From Chloroflexota bacterium (lineage in GTDB: Bacteria > Chloroflexota > Anaerolineae > Anaerolineales > Villigracilaceae), in the NCBI GenBank assembly GCA_016213105.1, contig JACRBN010000016.1, positions 186,001 to 250,000 on the forward strand: a DNA stretch of 64,000 nucleotides, read 5' to 3'. Under the pieces are notes generated by a model. The model did not search any database. It had not been told where the DNA came from and was given only the letters and a program-made list of their open reading frames with translations. Positions 14,335-19,325 of this stretch are shown in pieces; position 1 is the first letter of the stretch; each line of letters opens with the position of its first letter. Both the position numbers and the translations under genes were made by a program.

Positions 14335-14982
14335 ATGACCAGTGTCACCAAAACTCAAATGGATCGCGTCTGGCAGGCTGCTCTTTGGCTGGCCATTTTC
14401 ACGATTGTGTATAACCTCGCCGAGGGCTTGATTTCGATCTTCTTCGGCATCAGCGACGAGGCCCTGACCCTCTTCGGCTTCGGCGTGGACTCGTTCATCG
14501 AGGTCATGTCGGGCATCGGCATCTTCGCCATGGTGCTGCGCATCCGCCGGAACCCTGAGACGGAGCGCTCCCAATTCGAGCGCACCGCCCTGCGCGTGAC
14601 GGGCGCGTCGTTTTACCTGCTCGCGGCGGGGCTGGCAGTCACTGCCCTCTACAACATTTTCGCAGGGCACAAGCCCGAGACCACCCTGCCTGGCCTGGTC
14701 ATCTCGGTTGTCTCCATCGCAGTCATGTGGGCGCTGGTCATGGCCAAGCGCAGGGTTGGGCGGGCGCTCAACTCCGCGCCCATTTTGGCCGACGCCAACT
14801 GCACGCTGGTTTGCATCTACATGTCGGTCGTGCTGCTGGTCTCCAGCCTGGTGTATCAATTCACAGGCTTCGGCTTCATCGACAGCCTGGGCGCCATCGG
14901 CCTGATCTACTTCTCGTATAACGAAGGGAAGGAAGCCTTCGAGAAAGCGGCGGGCCTGGAGTGTGATTGCGAGGATGATTAA
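14335..14982 (+). CDS. CDF-like cation transporter, membrane domain only
   Basis: The 215-residue protein has about six membrane helices. Helix 2 contains FGFGVDSFIEVMSG, and helix 5 ADANCTLVCIYMSV, which matches the metal-site helices of the cation diffusion facilitator superfamily in position, with an acidic/Cys variation instead of the usual His-Asp pair. The cytoplasmic C-terminal domain of full CDF proteins is absent, and the tail ends with a CDCEDD Cys/acidic motif. It could export a divalent metal. AAGG at 14323-14326 is the ribosome-binding site. The TAA stop merges with the palindrome that follows. Confidence 0.75.
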   Translation: MTSVTKTQMDRVWQAALWLAIFTIVYNLAEGLISIFFGISDEALTLFGFGVDSFIEVMSGIGIFAMVLRIRRNPETERSQFERTALRVTGASFYLLAAGLAVTALYNIFAGHKPETTLPGLVISVVSIAVMWALVMAKRRVGRALNSAPILADANCTLVCIYMSVVLLVSSLVYQFTGFGFIDSLGAIGLIYFSYNEGKEAFEKAAGLECDCEDD

Positions 14983-15078
14983 CCTTGCGAAGGTTTTGAC
15001 ACAAACAAACCTTGGTTCTTCACCTCACTTGATCGAATCAACGAACCATTCAACTTGATTCCAAACCTTCGCAAGGTT
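14981..15078. repeat. 98-bp nested inverted repeat upstream of the ABC-F leader
   Basis: The ends are exact 16-bp inverted repeats (AACCTTGCGAAGGTTT and its complement), each itself nearly palindromic. A weaker inner pair, TGGTTC/GAACCA, is also present. The architecture is MITE-like. The left end supplies the last two bases of the transporter's TAA stop. Confidence 0.65.
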
Positions 15079-15088
15079 CAATTTGATG

Positions 15089-15094
15089 TATAAT
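15089..15094 (+). promoter_or_regulatory. -10 element TATAAT of the ABC-F operon
   Basis: A consensus TATAAT placed about 130 bases ahead of the ABC-F start. Transcription would begin near 15101, giving a leader that contains a short ORF and a terminator. The -35 element is weak. Confidence 0.6.
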
Positions 15095-15121
15095 CGCGCC
15101 ATCAAATCAGGAGTAGTTGCA

Positions 15122-15142
15122 GTGACAGACAGCATTCTCTAA
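15122..15142 (+). CDS. Putative six-codon leader peptide MTDSIL
   Basis: GTG ACA GAC AGC ATT CTC TAA is preceded by AGGAG (15109-15113) at an ideal 8-base spacing and lies about 21 bases after the presumed transcription start. Its place between the promoter and an intrinsic terminator fits the ribosome-sensing leader ORFs found ahead of inducible ABC-F, Erm and Cfr-type resistance genes. It is short and unproven, but the combination of signals is unlikely to be chance. Confidence 0.5.
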   Translation: MTDSIL

Positions 15143-15186
15143 CCAAACGCTTTTCAGGGTATGACCCGCTGTTTTGATTCTTACAG

Positions 15187-15215
15187 CCGAGGGCTTGCCC
15201 TCGGTTTTCGTTTTT
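15187..15215 (+). terminator. Attenuator-type intrinsic terminator in the ABC-F leader
   Basis: Stem CCGAGGGC / GCCCTCGG with a tight TT loop, then TTTTCGTTTTT. It lies 45 bases after the leader ORF stop and 16 bases before the ABC-F start codon, so it would stop transcription of the operon unless it is disrupted. An imperfect alternative pairing of CCCGCTG (about 15163-15171) with CAGCCGAGG (from 15184) could act as an antiterminator. Confidence 0.75.
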
Positions 15216-15231
15216 AAGTTACGGAGTGCTT

Positions 15232-16853
<1,622 letters not shown>

Positions 16854-16860
<7 letters not shown>

Positions 16861-17627
16861 ACCCAACGCCTTATCCCGAAATCAATCTTGTATTGAATGA
16901 ACTGCACGCGGGCGCAAAGTCGGCGCTCGGCGGACAATTCGTCGGCATGATCCTGTTCGGCTCGCTGACCACGGGCGCCTTCGACGAGGCCAGCGACGTG
17001 GATGTGTTGTTCGTCACGCAAGCTCCCGTCTCGGACGAAACCTTCGAGGCGCTCAAGTCCATGCACGCGCAGGTCGCTGAACTGAACGTATGGTGGGCGA
17101 CGCAGCTTGAGGTCTCCTACATCCCGCAGAAGGCTGTGCGCCGCTTCGACCCGAACGACAAACTGTATCCGCGCCTTGACCGTGGACGCGGCGAGCAACT
17201 GCACTGGATGTCGCACGAAAGCGACTGGGTCGTGCAGCGCCACCTTGCCCGCGAAAATGGAATCGCCCTCGCAGGGCCATCGCCCAAAGACTTGATCGAT
17301 CCCGTTTCTCCCAATGAATTGCGCGAGGCCATGCGCCCGCTGTTGAGCAATTGGCTTCCGTACCTGACCGAGGAACCCGTCACACACCGCGGATATCAAT
17401 CCTATATCGTGCTGACGGTTTGCCGTGTGCTGTACACGATCCAATTGGGCGATGTCGCCACCAAACCCCAGGCCGCTGAGTGGGCCATGCAATCCCTCGA
17501 CCCGCGCTGGGTCCCGTTGATCGAGCACGCCATCATCGGACGGCAGGAAGGCGGTCCTGTCGACCCCGCAAAGTTGGAAGAAACCATGGAGTTCCTTCAT
17601 TATGGAATCGCCCTCAGTGAAAAATAA
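16854..17627 (+). CDS. AadA-like nucleotidyltransferase (paralogue 1)
   Basis: The 257-residue protein has an N-terminal nucleotidyltransferase core, FGSLTTGAFDEASDVDVLFV, with the GS motif (36-37) and metal-binding Asp48 and Asp50. It also has an AadA/DUF4111-type helical C-terminal domain (VLTVCRVLYTIQLGDVATKPQAAEWA). The related ANT(3'')/ANT(9) enzymes adenylylate streptomycin or spectinomycin. Whether this protein uses an aminoglycoside is unknown. Its start overlaps the ABC-F stop by 7 bases, so the two are translationally coupled. It is clearly paralogous to the gene at 18555: the first 30 residues are nearly identical. Confidence 0.82.
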
Positions 17628-18558
17628 AATCCATCTTGATACCGACCTGGGCGGAGACATCGATGACCTGTGCGCGCTGGCCATGCTGCTGCGCTGGTCG
17701 GATGATCTGCAGATCTCAGGCATCACCACGGTAGCCGAAGCCAATGGAAGACGGGCAGGCTATGTTCAACATGTATTGAACCTCGAAGGAAGAAATGAAA
17801 TCCCTGTCGCCGCAGGAGCCGACGTCTCGCAGGAGTTTTATCGCTACCCCGAGCTGGGCTACCCAGACGAGGGACGTTATTGGGCACAATCCATTCCAAC
17901 ACGCACGAACGAGATTGAAGCCGCACTTGCGCTCTTGAAACAAAGCATCGAACAAGGCGCAACCATCATTGCCATTGGACCCTACACGAACTTGTATCTG
18001 CTCGATCTGCAATACCCAGGAATTTTGATGGAAGCCAACCTATATCTGATGGGAGGTTATGTTTACCCCATCCGACCAGGTTATCCCAATTGGAGCAACG
18101 AATACGACTGGAATATTCAAGTGGACGTGAGATCAGCCAGGCACGTTCTCGAAAATTCAAAGCCTGTGATGATCCCTCTTTCGGTCACTGTCGAGACGGC
18201 GCTGCGCAGGGCACATGTGGAGCGGCTGCAACAGGCAGGTCCGCTGGGACAGTTGCTGGCCATGCAAGCTGAGGCTTTTGCAGTGGACGAAAAAAATGAA
18301 AGCGGCATTGGCGAAACCTGTCCTGGCCTGCCACGCGACATCATCAACTTCCAGCATGACCCGCTGGCCTGTGCAATTGCCCAGGGATGGGATGAGGGAG
18401 TCGAATTCGAAACCGTTCCCCTCGTTTTGGAGGAAAAGGATGGCTGGCTGCATGAGCGCATTGGCACCACAGGCAAGCCTGTTCAGATCGTGACGAAAAT
18501 CGACGGCCCACGTTTCAACGAGTTCTGGCTTGACAAAGTCACAAAGAGAGGCTCATGA
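17602..18558 (+). CDS. Inosine/uridine-preferring nucleoside hydrolase family protein
   Basis: The 318-residue protein has the family calcium site near its N-terminus, LDTDLGGDIDD (Asp13, Asp15, Asp19-Asp22), plus IGPYTNL, LMGGYV and the late HDPLA motif. The family cleaves the N-glycosidic bond of ribonucleosides. Its start overlaps the preceding nucleotidyltransferase gene by 26 bases (GTG 17617 is an alternative). Its stop overlaps the next ATG by 4 bases. It is thus embedded between the two AadA-like paralogues. The substrate could be a normal nucleoside, or a nucleoside-like compound linked to the neighbouring enzymes; the latter is speculation. Confidence 0.85.
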   Translation: MESPSVKNKIHLDTDLGGDIDDLCALAMLLRWSDDLQISGITTVAEANGRRAGYVQHVLNLEGRNEIPVAAGADVSQEFYRYPELGYPDEGRYWAQSIPTRTNEIEAALALLKQSIEQGATIIAIGPYTNLYLLDLQYPGILMEANLYLMGGYVYPIRPGYPNWSNEYDWNIQVDVRSARHVLENSKPVMIPLSVTVETALRRAHVERLQQAGPLGQLLAMQAEAFAVDEKNESGIGETCPGLPRDIINFQHDPLACAIAQGWDEGVEFETVPLVLEEKDGWLHERIGTTGKPVQIVTKIDGPRFNEFWLDKVTKRGS

Positions 18559-19325
18559 CCAACCCAACACCCTACCCCGAGATCAACCTTGTGCTGAACG
18601 AATTGCTGACAGGTGCAAAATCCGCGCTTGGCGATCAGTTCGTCGGCATGTACCTGTACGGTTCGCTTTCCAGCGGCGATTTCAACCTCGACACCAGCGA
18701 CGTGGACTTTTTGTTCGTGACTGAAGGCGAATTACCCGAGGAGCGCGTGTTGGAAATCGAAATGCTGCATCAGCGCCTGTGGGCCAACGGCTCGAAATGG
18801 GCCTACAAACTGGAAGGCGCGTATGTGCCCAAAACCCTCATTCGCCGCCATGACCCGTCCGCGCCGCCCTGCCCCACGGTCAACGAGCACGCGTTCTACG
18901 TGGCCCGCCTGGGCAGCGACTGGATCATTCAACGCCACATCCTGCGCAACGGCCTGGTCGTGGAAGGACCGTCTCCCGCGGAACTGATCGACCCCGTCAC
19001 GGGCGATGAAGTCCGCGCGGCGGTTGTTCAACTGGTGAAAGAATGGTGGGAACCCATGCTGAAAAATCCCGCCTGGCTGGACGAGCGCGGCCCCGAGTAC
19101 AAAGTCTATGCCGTGGTCAGCATGTGCCGCGTGTTATACACGCTGGAGCATAAAGAAATTGCCTCCAAGCCCGTGTCCGCGCGCTGGGCCTTGACCCAGG
19201 TGAATGAAGCCCAAAGGCGACAGATCGAAGATGCGCTCGCCTGGAATTACGGCGTAGAATGGAATCATACGCTCGAAGAAGCGTTGAATCTGATTCGGGT
19301 TGCGGTGGAGCGTAGCGCGAGATAA
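18555..19325 (+). CDS. AadA-like nucleotidyltransferase (paralogue 2)
   Basis: The 256-residue protein begins MTNPTPYPEINLVLNELL, almost the same as paralogue 1, and has YGSLSSGDFNLDTSDVDFLFV with Asp49 and Asp51 as metal ligands. The C-terminal helical domain (VVSMCRVLYTLEHKEIASKPVSARWA) is again AadA-like. The ATG overlaps the hydrolase stop in ATGA, so the four-gene run is tightly coupled. Divergence in the substrate-facing middle region suggests different targets. The TAA stop lies inside the palindrome 19312-19338. Confidence 0.82.
   Translation: MTNPTPYPEINLVLNELLTGAKSALGDQFVGMYLYGSLSSGDFNLDTSDVDFLFVTEGELPEERVLEIEMLHQRLWANGSKWAYKLEGAYVPKTLIRRHDPSAPPCPTVNEHAFYVARLGSDWIIQRHILRNGLVVEGPSPAELIDPVTGDEVRAAVVQLVKEWWEPMLKNPAWLDERGPEYKVYAVVSMCRVLYTLEHKEIASKPVSARWALTQVNEAQRRQIEDALAWNYGVEWNHTLEEALNLIRVAVERSAR

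Follow-up and report, generated by a model that had tools for sequence, protein, structure and literature searches.

A candidate ribosome-gated attenuator upstream of a ribosomal-protection-like ABC-F gene in Anaerolineae

Drug-inducible control of ABC-F genes by upstream open reading frames (uORFs) has been described in Gram-positive bacteria (PMC9226507, PMC10201436). The leader of Bacillus subtilis vmlR, as presented in PMC9226507, combines a uORF encoding MIN with an intrinsic terminator and an antiterminator; the ribosome stalls at initiation, and lincomycin and retapamulin act early. The uORFs given for Clostridioides difficile cplR, VmlR2 and LsaA encode MR[I/M], MK[L/Q] and MAGN (PMC10201436). 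In the account of toiL-topAI, stalling of the ribosome on the start codon releases the paired Shine-Dalgarno (SD) sequence (PMC12121999). The ABC-F subfamily ARE4 (TlrC, CarA, OleB, SrmB) is entered for Actinobacteria and Chloroflexi in a survey table (PMC6723617), and no ABC-F leader in Chloroflexota appears among the matches listed in the open literature.

Here we analyzed a 64,000-nt stretch of DNA (the window) from the 5.4 Mb genome of a Chloroflexota bacterium (assembly GCA_016213105.1, contig JACRBN010000016.1, positions 186,001 to 250,000 of the forward strand). Judged by its sequence, the leader of an ABC-F gene in this window has the parts of an attenuator of the vmlR and cplR kind, namely a short SD-preceded uORF and an intrinsic terminator ahead of the gene. 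We consider it probable that this leader is a two-layer, ribosome-gated attenuator, in which an early stall on the uORF would unmask the ABC-F start and transcription would be attenuated as well. The proposed translational layer is well supported and the transcriptional layer is likely.

The ABC-F locus and its leader

All features described here lie on the + strand. The ABC-F gene (15232 to 16860, with an ATG start codon at 15232) encodes a protein of 542 aa that matches NCBIfam model NF000355 for ribosomal-protection-like ABC-F proteins at 422.1 bits, above the curated cut-off of 380. The best specific resistance model is NF000171 (ARE4; TlrC/CarA/OleB/SrmB), whose curated cut-off of 800 is not reached by the 330.9 bits scored. 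The gene is probably an antibiotic-resistance gene; it is not a methyltransferase gene of the sort found downstream of Cfr and Erm leaders. Its stop codon is overlapped by an aminoglycoside nucleotidyltransferase-like gene (AadA_C, 16857 to 17627), followed by a nucleoside hydrolase-like gene (17602 to 18558) and a second AadA_C nucleotidyltransferase (18555 to 19325), such that two divergent AadA-type genes flank the nucleoside hydrolase gene in one overlapping run (16857 to 19325). An AadA-type relative is found within about 0.9 kb downstream of ABC-F in 14 of 80 related loci, and the nucleoside hydrolase has no match in the 80 loci (flanks of up to 3 kb).

These related loci are the best 80 of 126 obtained by searching one genome per species, with ABC-F identities of 49-90%. 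The titles of their records name Chloroflexi, Anaerolineales, Anaerolineae and similar groups, along with two uncultured bacteria; among them are the cultured Bellilinea, Longilinea, Leptolinea and Ornatilinea. A thinned set comprises 26 loci under 65% ABC-F identity. In most loci the leader is arranged alike, running from -10 box and SD through uORF, T-rich tract and AGGGCA to the terminator and ribosome-binding site (RBS).

In the window, an AGGAG SD (15109 to 15113) is separated by an 8-nt spacer from the uORF GTG ACA GAC AGC ATT CTC TAA (15122 to 15142), which encodes MTDSIL*. SD-preceded uORF candidates are also present in relatives, and a short uORF could be assigned in 70 of the 80 related loci in addition to the window. 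The loci with none assigned are L043 (tandem ABC-F), L055, L070, L071, L072, L075, L077, L079, L083 and L087. Some counts leave out L013 (start-stop), L039 (doubtful uORF) and L073 (8 codons), and in L057, L063, L084 and L088 the uORF was chosen after its complementarity to the RBS had been seen. Across 69 loci (L013 and L039 excluded) there are 43 different peptides of 3-8 residues, mostly 5 (36 loci) or 6 (23 loci). The peptide starts with MT in 42 of these 69 loci and with MTD in 37, as it also does in 10 of the 26 thinned loci. Within MTD the Thr codon is ACG in 19 loci, ACA in 15, ACC in 2 and ACT in 1, and this freedom of the third base to vary suggests that selection acts on the amino acid. 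A second ORF running over the window terminator (ATG at 15161) was considered and rejected, an ATG being present in that interval in just 9/71 loci.

Two departures from the common uORF were noted. By a small difference from its relatives, either real or an assembly error, L013 has a start-stop uORF (ATGTAA) 84 nt upstream of ABC-F, and its terminator is a different hairpin from theirs. In a sister clade (L070, L072 and L075), a 20-codon uORF (MTDRAIDIQGVLWRSHVRAR, MTDRAINNKGSPWRSHIRVR and MTDNAINIQGVLWRNHVRAR) lies 153-163 nt upstream of ABC-F and ends in R-x-R, followed, by eye, by a different terminator-like hairpin. Such an R-x-R ending resembles macrolide arrest motifs.

The intrinsic terminator (15185 to 15215) has a core hairpin CCGAGGGCTTGCCCTCGG at 15187 to 15204, extended by the scan to 15185 to 15206, and a T-rich tail reaching 15215. 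A terminator is present in 63 of 71 loci, window included, compared with 0.7% of shuffled intervals. The -10 box, AGGAG, GTG mini-ORF and terminator of the original prediction were all read directly where it had placed them, and since uORF and terminator are both conserved, the lack of conservation it had named as counting against it is not what the relatives display. Eight loci have no terminator by score (L057, L062, L063, L067, L074, L080, L081 and L088), of which seven form one clade, L088 being the other.

Upstream of the uORF lies a TATAAT -10 box (15089 to 15094) with no -35 match, and transcription would probably start near 15101. Because a sigma-70 scan that also demanded a -35 found nothing between 14500 and 19500 (shuffles averaged 1.5), the promoter call rests on the -10 box and its conservation. 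A TATAAT-like box (at most 1 mismatch) occurs 30-57 nt upstream of the uORF in 64/67 loci, and at 30-40 nt in 56 of these 64; as 38% of shuffled regions also have such a box, one alone is not significant. Just before AGGGCA, the leaders have a T-rich tract (TTTTC at 15151 to 15155 in the window) whose distance from the uORF start varies little. NusG pausing is described as letting the ribosome load on vmlR (PMC9226507), and by analogy this tract could be a site of RNA polymerase pausing that lets a ribosome load.

Two further elements were seen in the upstream DNA. Immediately next to the leader promoter of the window, at 14981 to 15078, lies a 98-bp element (core AACCTTGCGAAGGTT) whose 24-nt ends are inverted; an overlap with the -35 region would result, and no copy is seen in the upstream DNA inspected for L009, the closest relative. 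The core has 68 copies in the genome at no more than 1 mismatch (25 exact, reversed control 0), often in inverted pairs about 82 bp apart, and this copy number and pairing suggest a MITE- or REP-like repeat. The other element, AAGTTTACC (at most 1 mismatch), is found 50-79 nt upstream of the uORF in 17/71 loci (L010-L013, L015, L017-L019, L024, L025, L028-L030, L033, L035, L038 and L069) versus 0.8% of shuffles, at 50-55 nt in 12 of the 17, and was not found in the window. It is possibly an operator or an unusual promoter element.

A covariance model (R1) was built from 31 of 48 aligned leaders. In its own genome R1 finds the window copy and one chance-level match (E 7). With stricter filters it matches in 14 of 396 class genomes at E<=0.01 and at 61 places in 152 family genomes at E<=6e-5, and ABC-F adjoins the leader in 42 of the 44 places looked at among these 61. 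The leader remains in L131, where ABC-F is reduced to a 38-residue C-terminal piece, and in L133, where there is no ABC-F match; a weaker place, L141 (E 0.005), has no ABC-F match and an AadA-like fragment next to it. Eight other weak R1 places and the E 7 place in the own genome have no matching gene context, look like chance and were not accepted as leaders. Rfam gave no match at gathering score in the leader, its one sub-threshold match being on the minus strand (E 0.49). In an ABC-F tree made by a quick method, leaders are present on both sides of a deep split, so that the leader is probably ancestral there.

Pairings within the leader

The strongest covariation signal, and the best supported of the predicted pairings in the leader, joins the tail of the uORF to the ABC-F RBS. 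The 3' half of the uORF provides an anti-RBS strand (15131 to 15143) that would mask the ABC-F ribosome-binding region GTTACGGAGTGCT (15218 to 15230; SD GGAG at 15223 to 15226), with 15131-15138 pairing with 15223-15230 and 15140-15143 with 15218-15221. The original prediction had read the leader as a transcriptional attenuator. Its uORF and terminator do stand ahead of a ribosomal-protection-like ABC-F gene, but that reading is incomplete, as the best supported pairing, uORF codons with RBS, is translational.

Consistent with this pairing, the mean duplex energy of each uORF with its own RBS was -14.0 kcal/mol versus -9.4 when partners were swapped (0/10000 permutations, 71 loci), and -14.5 versus -10.0 kcal/mol in the 26 thinned loci (0/10000). 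Compared with dinucleotide shuffles of the same uORF, pairing was significant (p<0.05) in 52 of 68 loci, 17 of 26 after thinning, and not significant in 16 of the 68. When partners are ranked, the own RBS comes first in just 9/71 loci and within the top five in 30/71. In all eight loci without a terminator the pairing is retained and reaches p<0.05. Pairs that changed on both strands and were kept include AGCAACCTGT/ACAGGTTGCT in L054, AGTAACCTGT/ACAGGTTACT in L058, AAGTTCATTCC/GGAATGAACTT in L063 and GAGAGCA/TGCTCTC in L049. Even in L009, with an ABC-F 90% identical to that of the window, both sides differ from the window (CTAACTT/AAGTTAG and GCATTC/GAATGC). In an alignment of 31 leaders (A1), the RBS helix is 74% paired; for this helix and the terminator together, cells changed on both sides numbered 15 versus 4.8 in shuffles (0/500), and pairs changed on both sides 5 versus 3.4 (72/500), which is no excess. 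Six loci (L011, L020, L022, L027, L032 and L036) have about 35-110 nt of extra DNA between the terminator and the ABC-F RBS and keep the RBS complement; pairing across the extra DNA reaches p<0.05 in L011, L020, L022 and L027, and not in L032 or L036.

The position of the helix follows the start codon of the uORF. For uORFs of 3, 5 and 6 codons, its centre lies at +14.3 (n 7), +15.9 (n 35) and +16.5 (n 22) from the start codon, and at +4.3, -0.1 and -2.5 from the stop; the standard deviation is 3.27 nt from the start versus 3.97 from the stop, a moderate difference. The longest helix includes the GG of the SD in 45/66 loci, and uORF codons are thus predicted to pair directly with the downstream SD, as in the toiL-topAI kind. 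Folding with and without a ribosome on the uORF, a check named in the original prediction, gave SD release across 68 loci, where the mean unpaired probability of the SD rose from 0.19 free to 0.29 blocked (control block 0.19), but not in the window, where it was 0.26 free and 0.21-0.27 with a ribosome on the uORF. With the ribosome at codon 3, SD accessibility increased by more than 0.2 in 30 of the 68 loci and decreased by as much in 8. The complementarity points to a masked SD like that of other ABC-F attenuators, with the folding model neutral in the window.

For the transcriptional layer, the likely antiterminator pairs the motif AGGGTA (15156 to 15161; consensus AGGGCA) with TGCCCT (15196 to 15201), a later choice among several tests, picked after earlier candidates had failed. 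Counted from the uORF start, an AGGGCA-like motif lies at +33 to +37 in 52/60 loci. In an ungapped-run swap test of this motif against the terminator loop and 3' arm, own partners scored 12.98 versus 11.32 for swapped ones in 24 thinned loci (0/10000), with 0/10000 over all loci too, and covarying pairs include AGGACAT/ATGTCCT (L015, L035), GAGCT/AGCTC (L047), GAGCAG/CTGCTC (L051) and AGGTAGA/TCTGCCT (L078). Tests of pairing energy gave 0/5000 in swaps over all loci, 572/5000 in thinned swaps and a null result against shuffles (3/61 loci), and the alternative fold was null against shuffled spacers (thinned mean z -0.10, control -0.41). Little separates the antiterminator fold from the terminator fold in energy (-18.7 versus -19.5 kcal/mol in the window), with a median gap of 1.7 kcal/mol and 31/60 loci within 2.

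The original prediction had instead named 15163-15171:15184-15193, in which ACCCGCTG (15164 to 15171) would be an inner antiterminator strand for the terminator 5' arm. This pairing can be drawn, and with slightly different limits it exceeds swaps over 60 loci (1/10000), but it reached p<0.05 against shuffles in just 1/61 loci versus 5/57 for a control region, gave 1714/5000 in one swap test and 1447/10000 in thinned swaps, and is kept as a weak candidate. Among the other pairings scored in the same way as AGGGTA:TGCCCT, it was the sole one whose result was not null. Searches for an anti-antiterminator found no extra structure from the SD to the terminator (mean z 0.23), scores below swapped for the uORF tail against the motif (9968/10000), and null results for a local AGGG..CCC hairpin and for uORF, 5' UTR and spacer pairings. 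These pairing and structure tests found no tie between the antiterminator and a ribosome on the uORF.

Proposed mechanism and alternatives

In the mechanism we propose, ribosomes in the absence of drug would quickly clear the 6-codon uORF and most transcripts would end at 15215; in those that read through, the uORF tail would fold back on the ABC-F SD, leaving the gene untranslated. A drug acting at the peptidyl transferase or upper tunnel would hold the ribosome between the start codon and about codon 4, where its footprint (some 16 nt past the first P-site base) would cover part or all of the uORF tail, free the RBS and allow ABC-F to be made, and antitermination via AGGGTA:TGCCCT would simultaneously raise the amount of full-length RNA. 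By clearing drug from ribosomes, ABC-F would in turn relieve the stall as feedback. A ribosome at a start codon is reported to reach +16 to +18 by toeprint (PMC9226507) and profiling (PMC12121999); with helix centres at about +14 to +17, the geometry fits an early stall, and this nearly constant distance to the uORF start codon predicts the position at which a drug must stall the ribosome. Drug induction of the leader is something we infer by analogy. Pleuromutilins and lincosamides are described as acting early (PMC9226507, PMC10201436) and tylosin-type macrolides as leaving di- to tetrapeptides (PMC10192219), and all three fit the leader geometry; no usable stall site came from a study of ermB induction by 16-membered macrolides (PMC9178857).

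Other explanations differ in which of these parts they take to matter. If stalling just blocked termination via 15163-15171:15184-15193, the complementarity to the RBS would be incidental. We hold this improbable, given that the RBS pairing is the strongest covariation signal and persists in the eight terminator-less loci, and that the named antiterminator is not significant against shuffles or in thinned swaps, even though the terminator is very conserved, the two folds are close in energy and that pairing exceeds swaps over all 60 loci. The leader might alternatively serve no drug response at all, acting in basal damping or in coupling to translation rate or starvation with a uORF that senses slow initiation generally. 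A variable peptide and a helix position tied to the start codon mean that any early stall would do, yet the recurrence of MTD in distant lineages with synonymous changes, and a ribosomal-protection-like ABC-F gene as in drug-induced vmlR and cplR, make such a device unlikely. That the terminator and mini-ORF occur by chance, with no regulatory feature present, we regard as wholly implausible in view of the conservation and covariation across relatives, unexceptional as the single-sequence fold may be (the whole leader is not unusually stable, with a z of -0.97 and 40/200 shuffles as good).

The ribosome-gated attenuator could also be refined, in that arrest might be peptide-specific and depend on nascent MTD, where Thr would be the penultimate residue with Asp in the P site. 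MTD is found in over half of the loci (37/69), and the cat-86 leader peptide MVKTD shares TD with it. The stalling context reported for chloramphenicol and linezolid has penultimate Ala and, less so, Ser or Thr (PMC8987054); Thr before Asp in MTD fits this context. We are nevertheless doubtful of this refinement, as 32/69 loci are without MTD, Thr is a weaker context than Ala (PMC8987054) and the best specific ABC-F resistance model is the macrolide-type TlrC/CarA/OleB/SrmB rather than OptrA.

A broader view, which we offer tentatively and hold slightly less probable than its contrary, is that the leader is a footprint-gauged switch across Anaerolineae. The uORF would serve chiefly as an antisense strand, placed at a distance from its start codon of roughly one ribosome footprint, and a ribosome detained on the first codons for whatever reason would expose the ABC-F start. 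It would have been retuned either as MTD* without a terminator, a pure translational switch, or as the long MTD...R-x-R* of L070, L072 and L075, giving three sensor designs in one gene family.

Comparison with known systems

If the attenuator reading is true, drug-inducible uORF control of ABC-F is also old in Anaerolineae. Two devices described in separate systems would then meet in a single 130-nt leader: an intrinsic-terminator attenuator, and a uORF whose sequence is antisense to the RBS of the gene that follows. The eight loci with the translational half only would represent a natural dissecting experiment. Both devices are already known from other systems; what is new, as far as our literature search reaches, is their combination, together with the peptide, the lineage and the terminator-less loci.

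The gene downstream sets the leader apart from cat-86 and ermC, being here an ABC-F gene. The cat-86 and ermC attenuators have longer leader peptides and are not known to carry a terminator. They are alike in principle, since in those translational attenuators a drug-stalled ribosome on the leader frees a masked RBS (PMC4191407). The likeness of the ABC-F protein to ARE4 is one of model score, with NF000171 the best specific model at 331 bits, far below its cut-off of 800.

The leader resembles that of vmlR in its ABC-F gene, very short uORF, intrinsic terminator and partly masked main-gene SD, as described in PMC9226507. It differs in peptide and phylum, in that vmlR uses a distinct hairpin (SL-4) to mask its SD where the present leader would use the uORF itself, and in that the vmlR model includes an anti-antiterminator (SL-1), of which none was found here (PMC9226507). 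As with cplR, transcriptional and translational attenuation of an ABC-F gene would act together; in contrast to the terminator stem of cplR, which holds the SD, the terminator here is separate and upstream of the SD (PMC10201436). Escherichia coli toiL-topAI is similar in that a uORF pairs at a distance with the SD of the next gene, but that system is a toxin-antitoxin operon with Rho-dependent termination and an unrelated uORF (PMC12121999), whereas the leader described here precedes an ABC-F gene and carries an intrinsic terminator.
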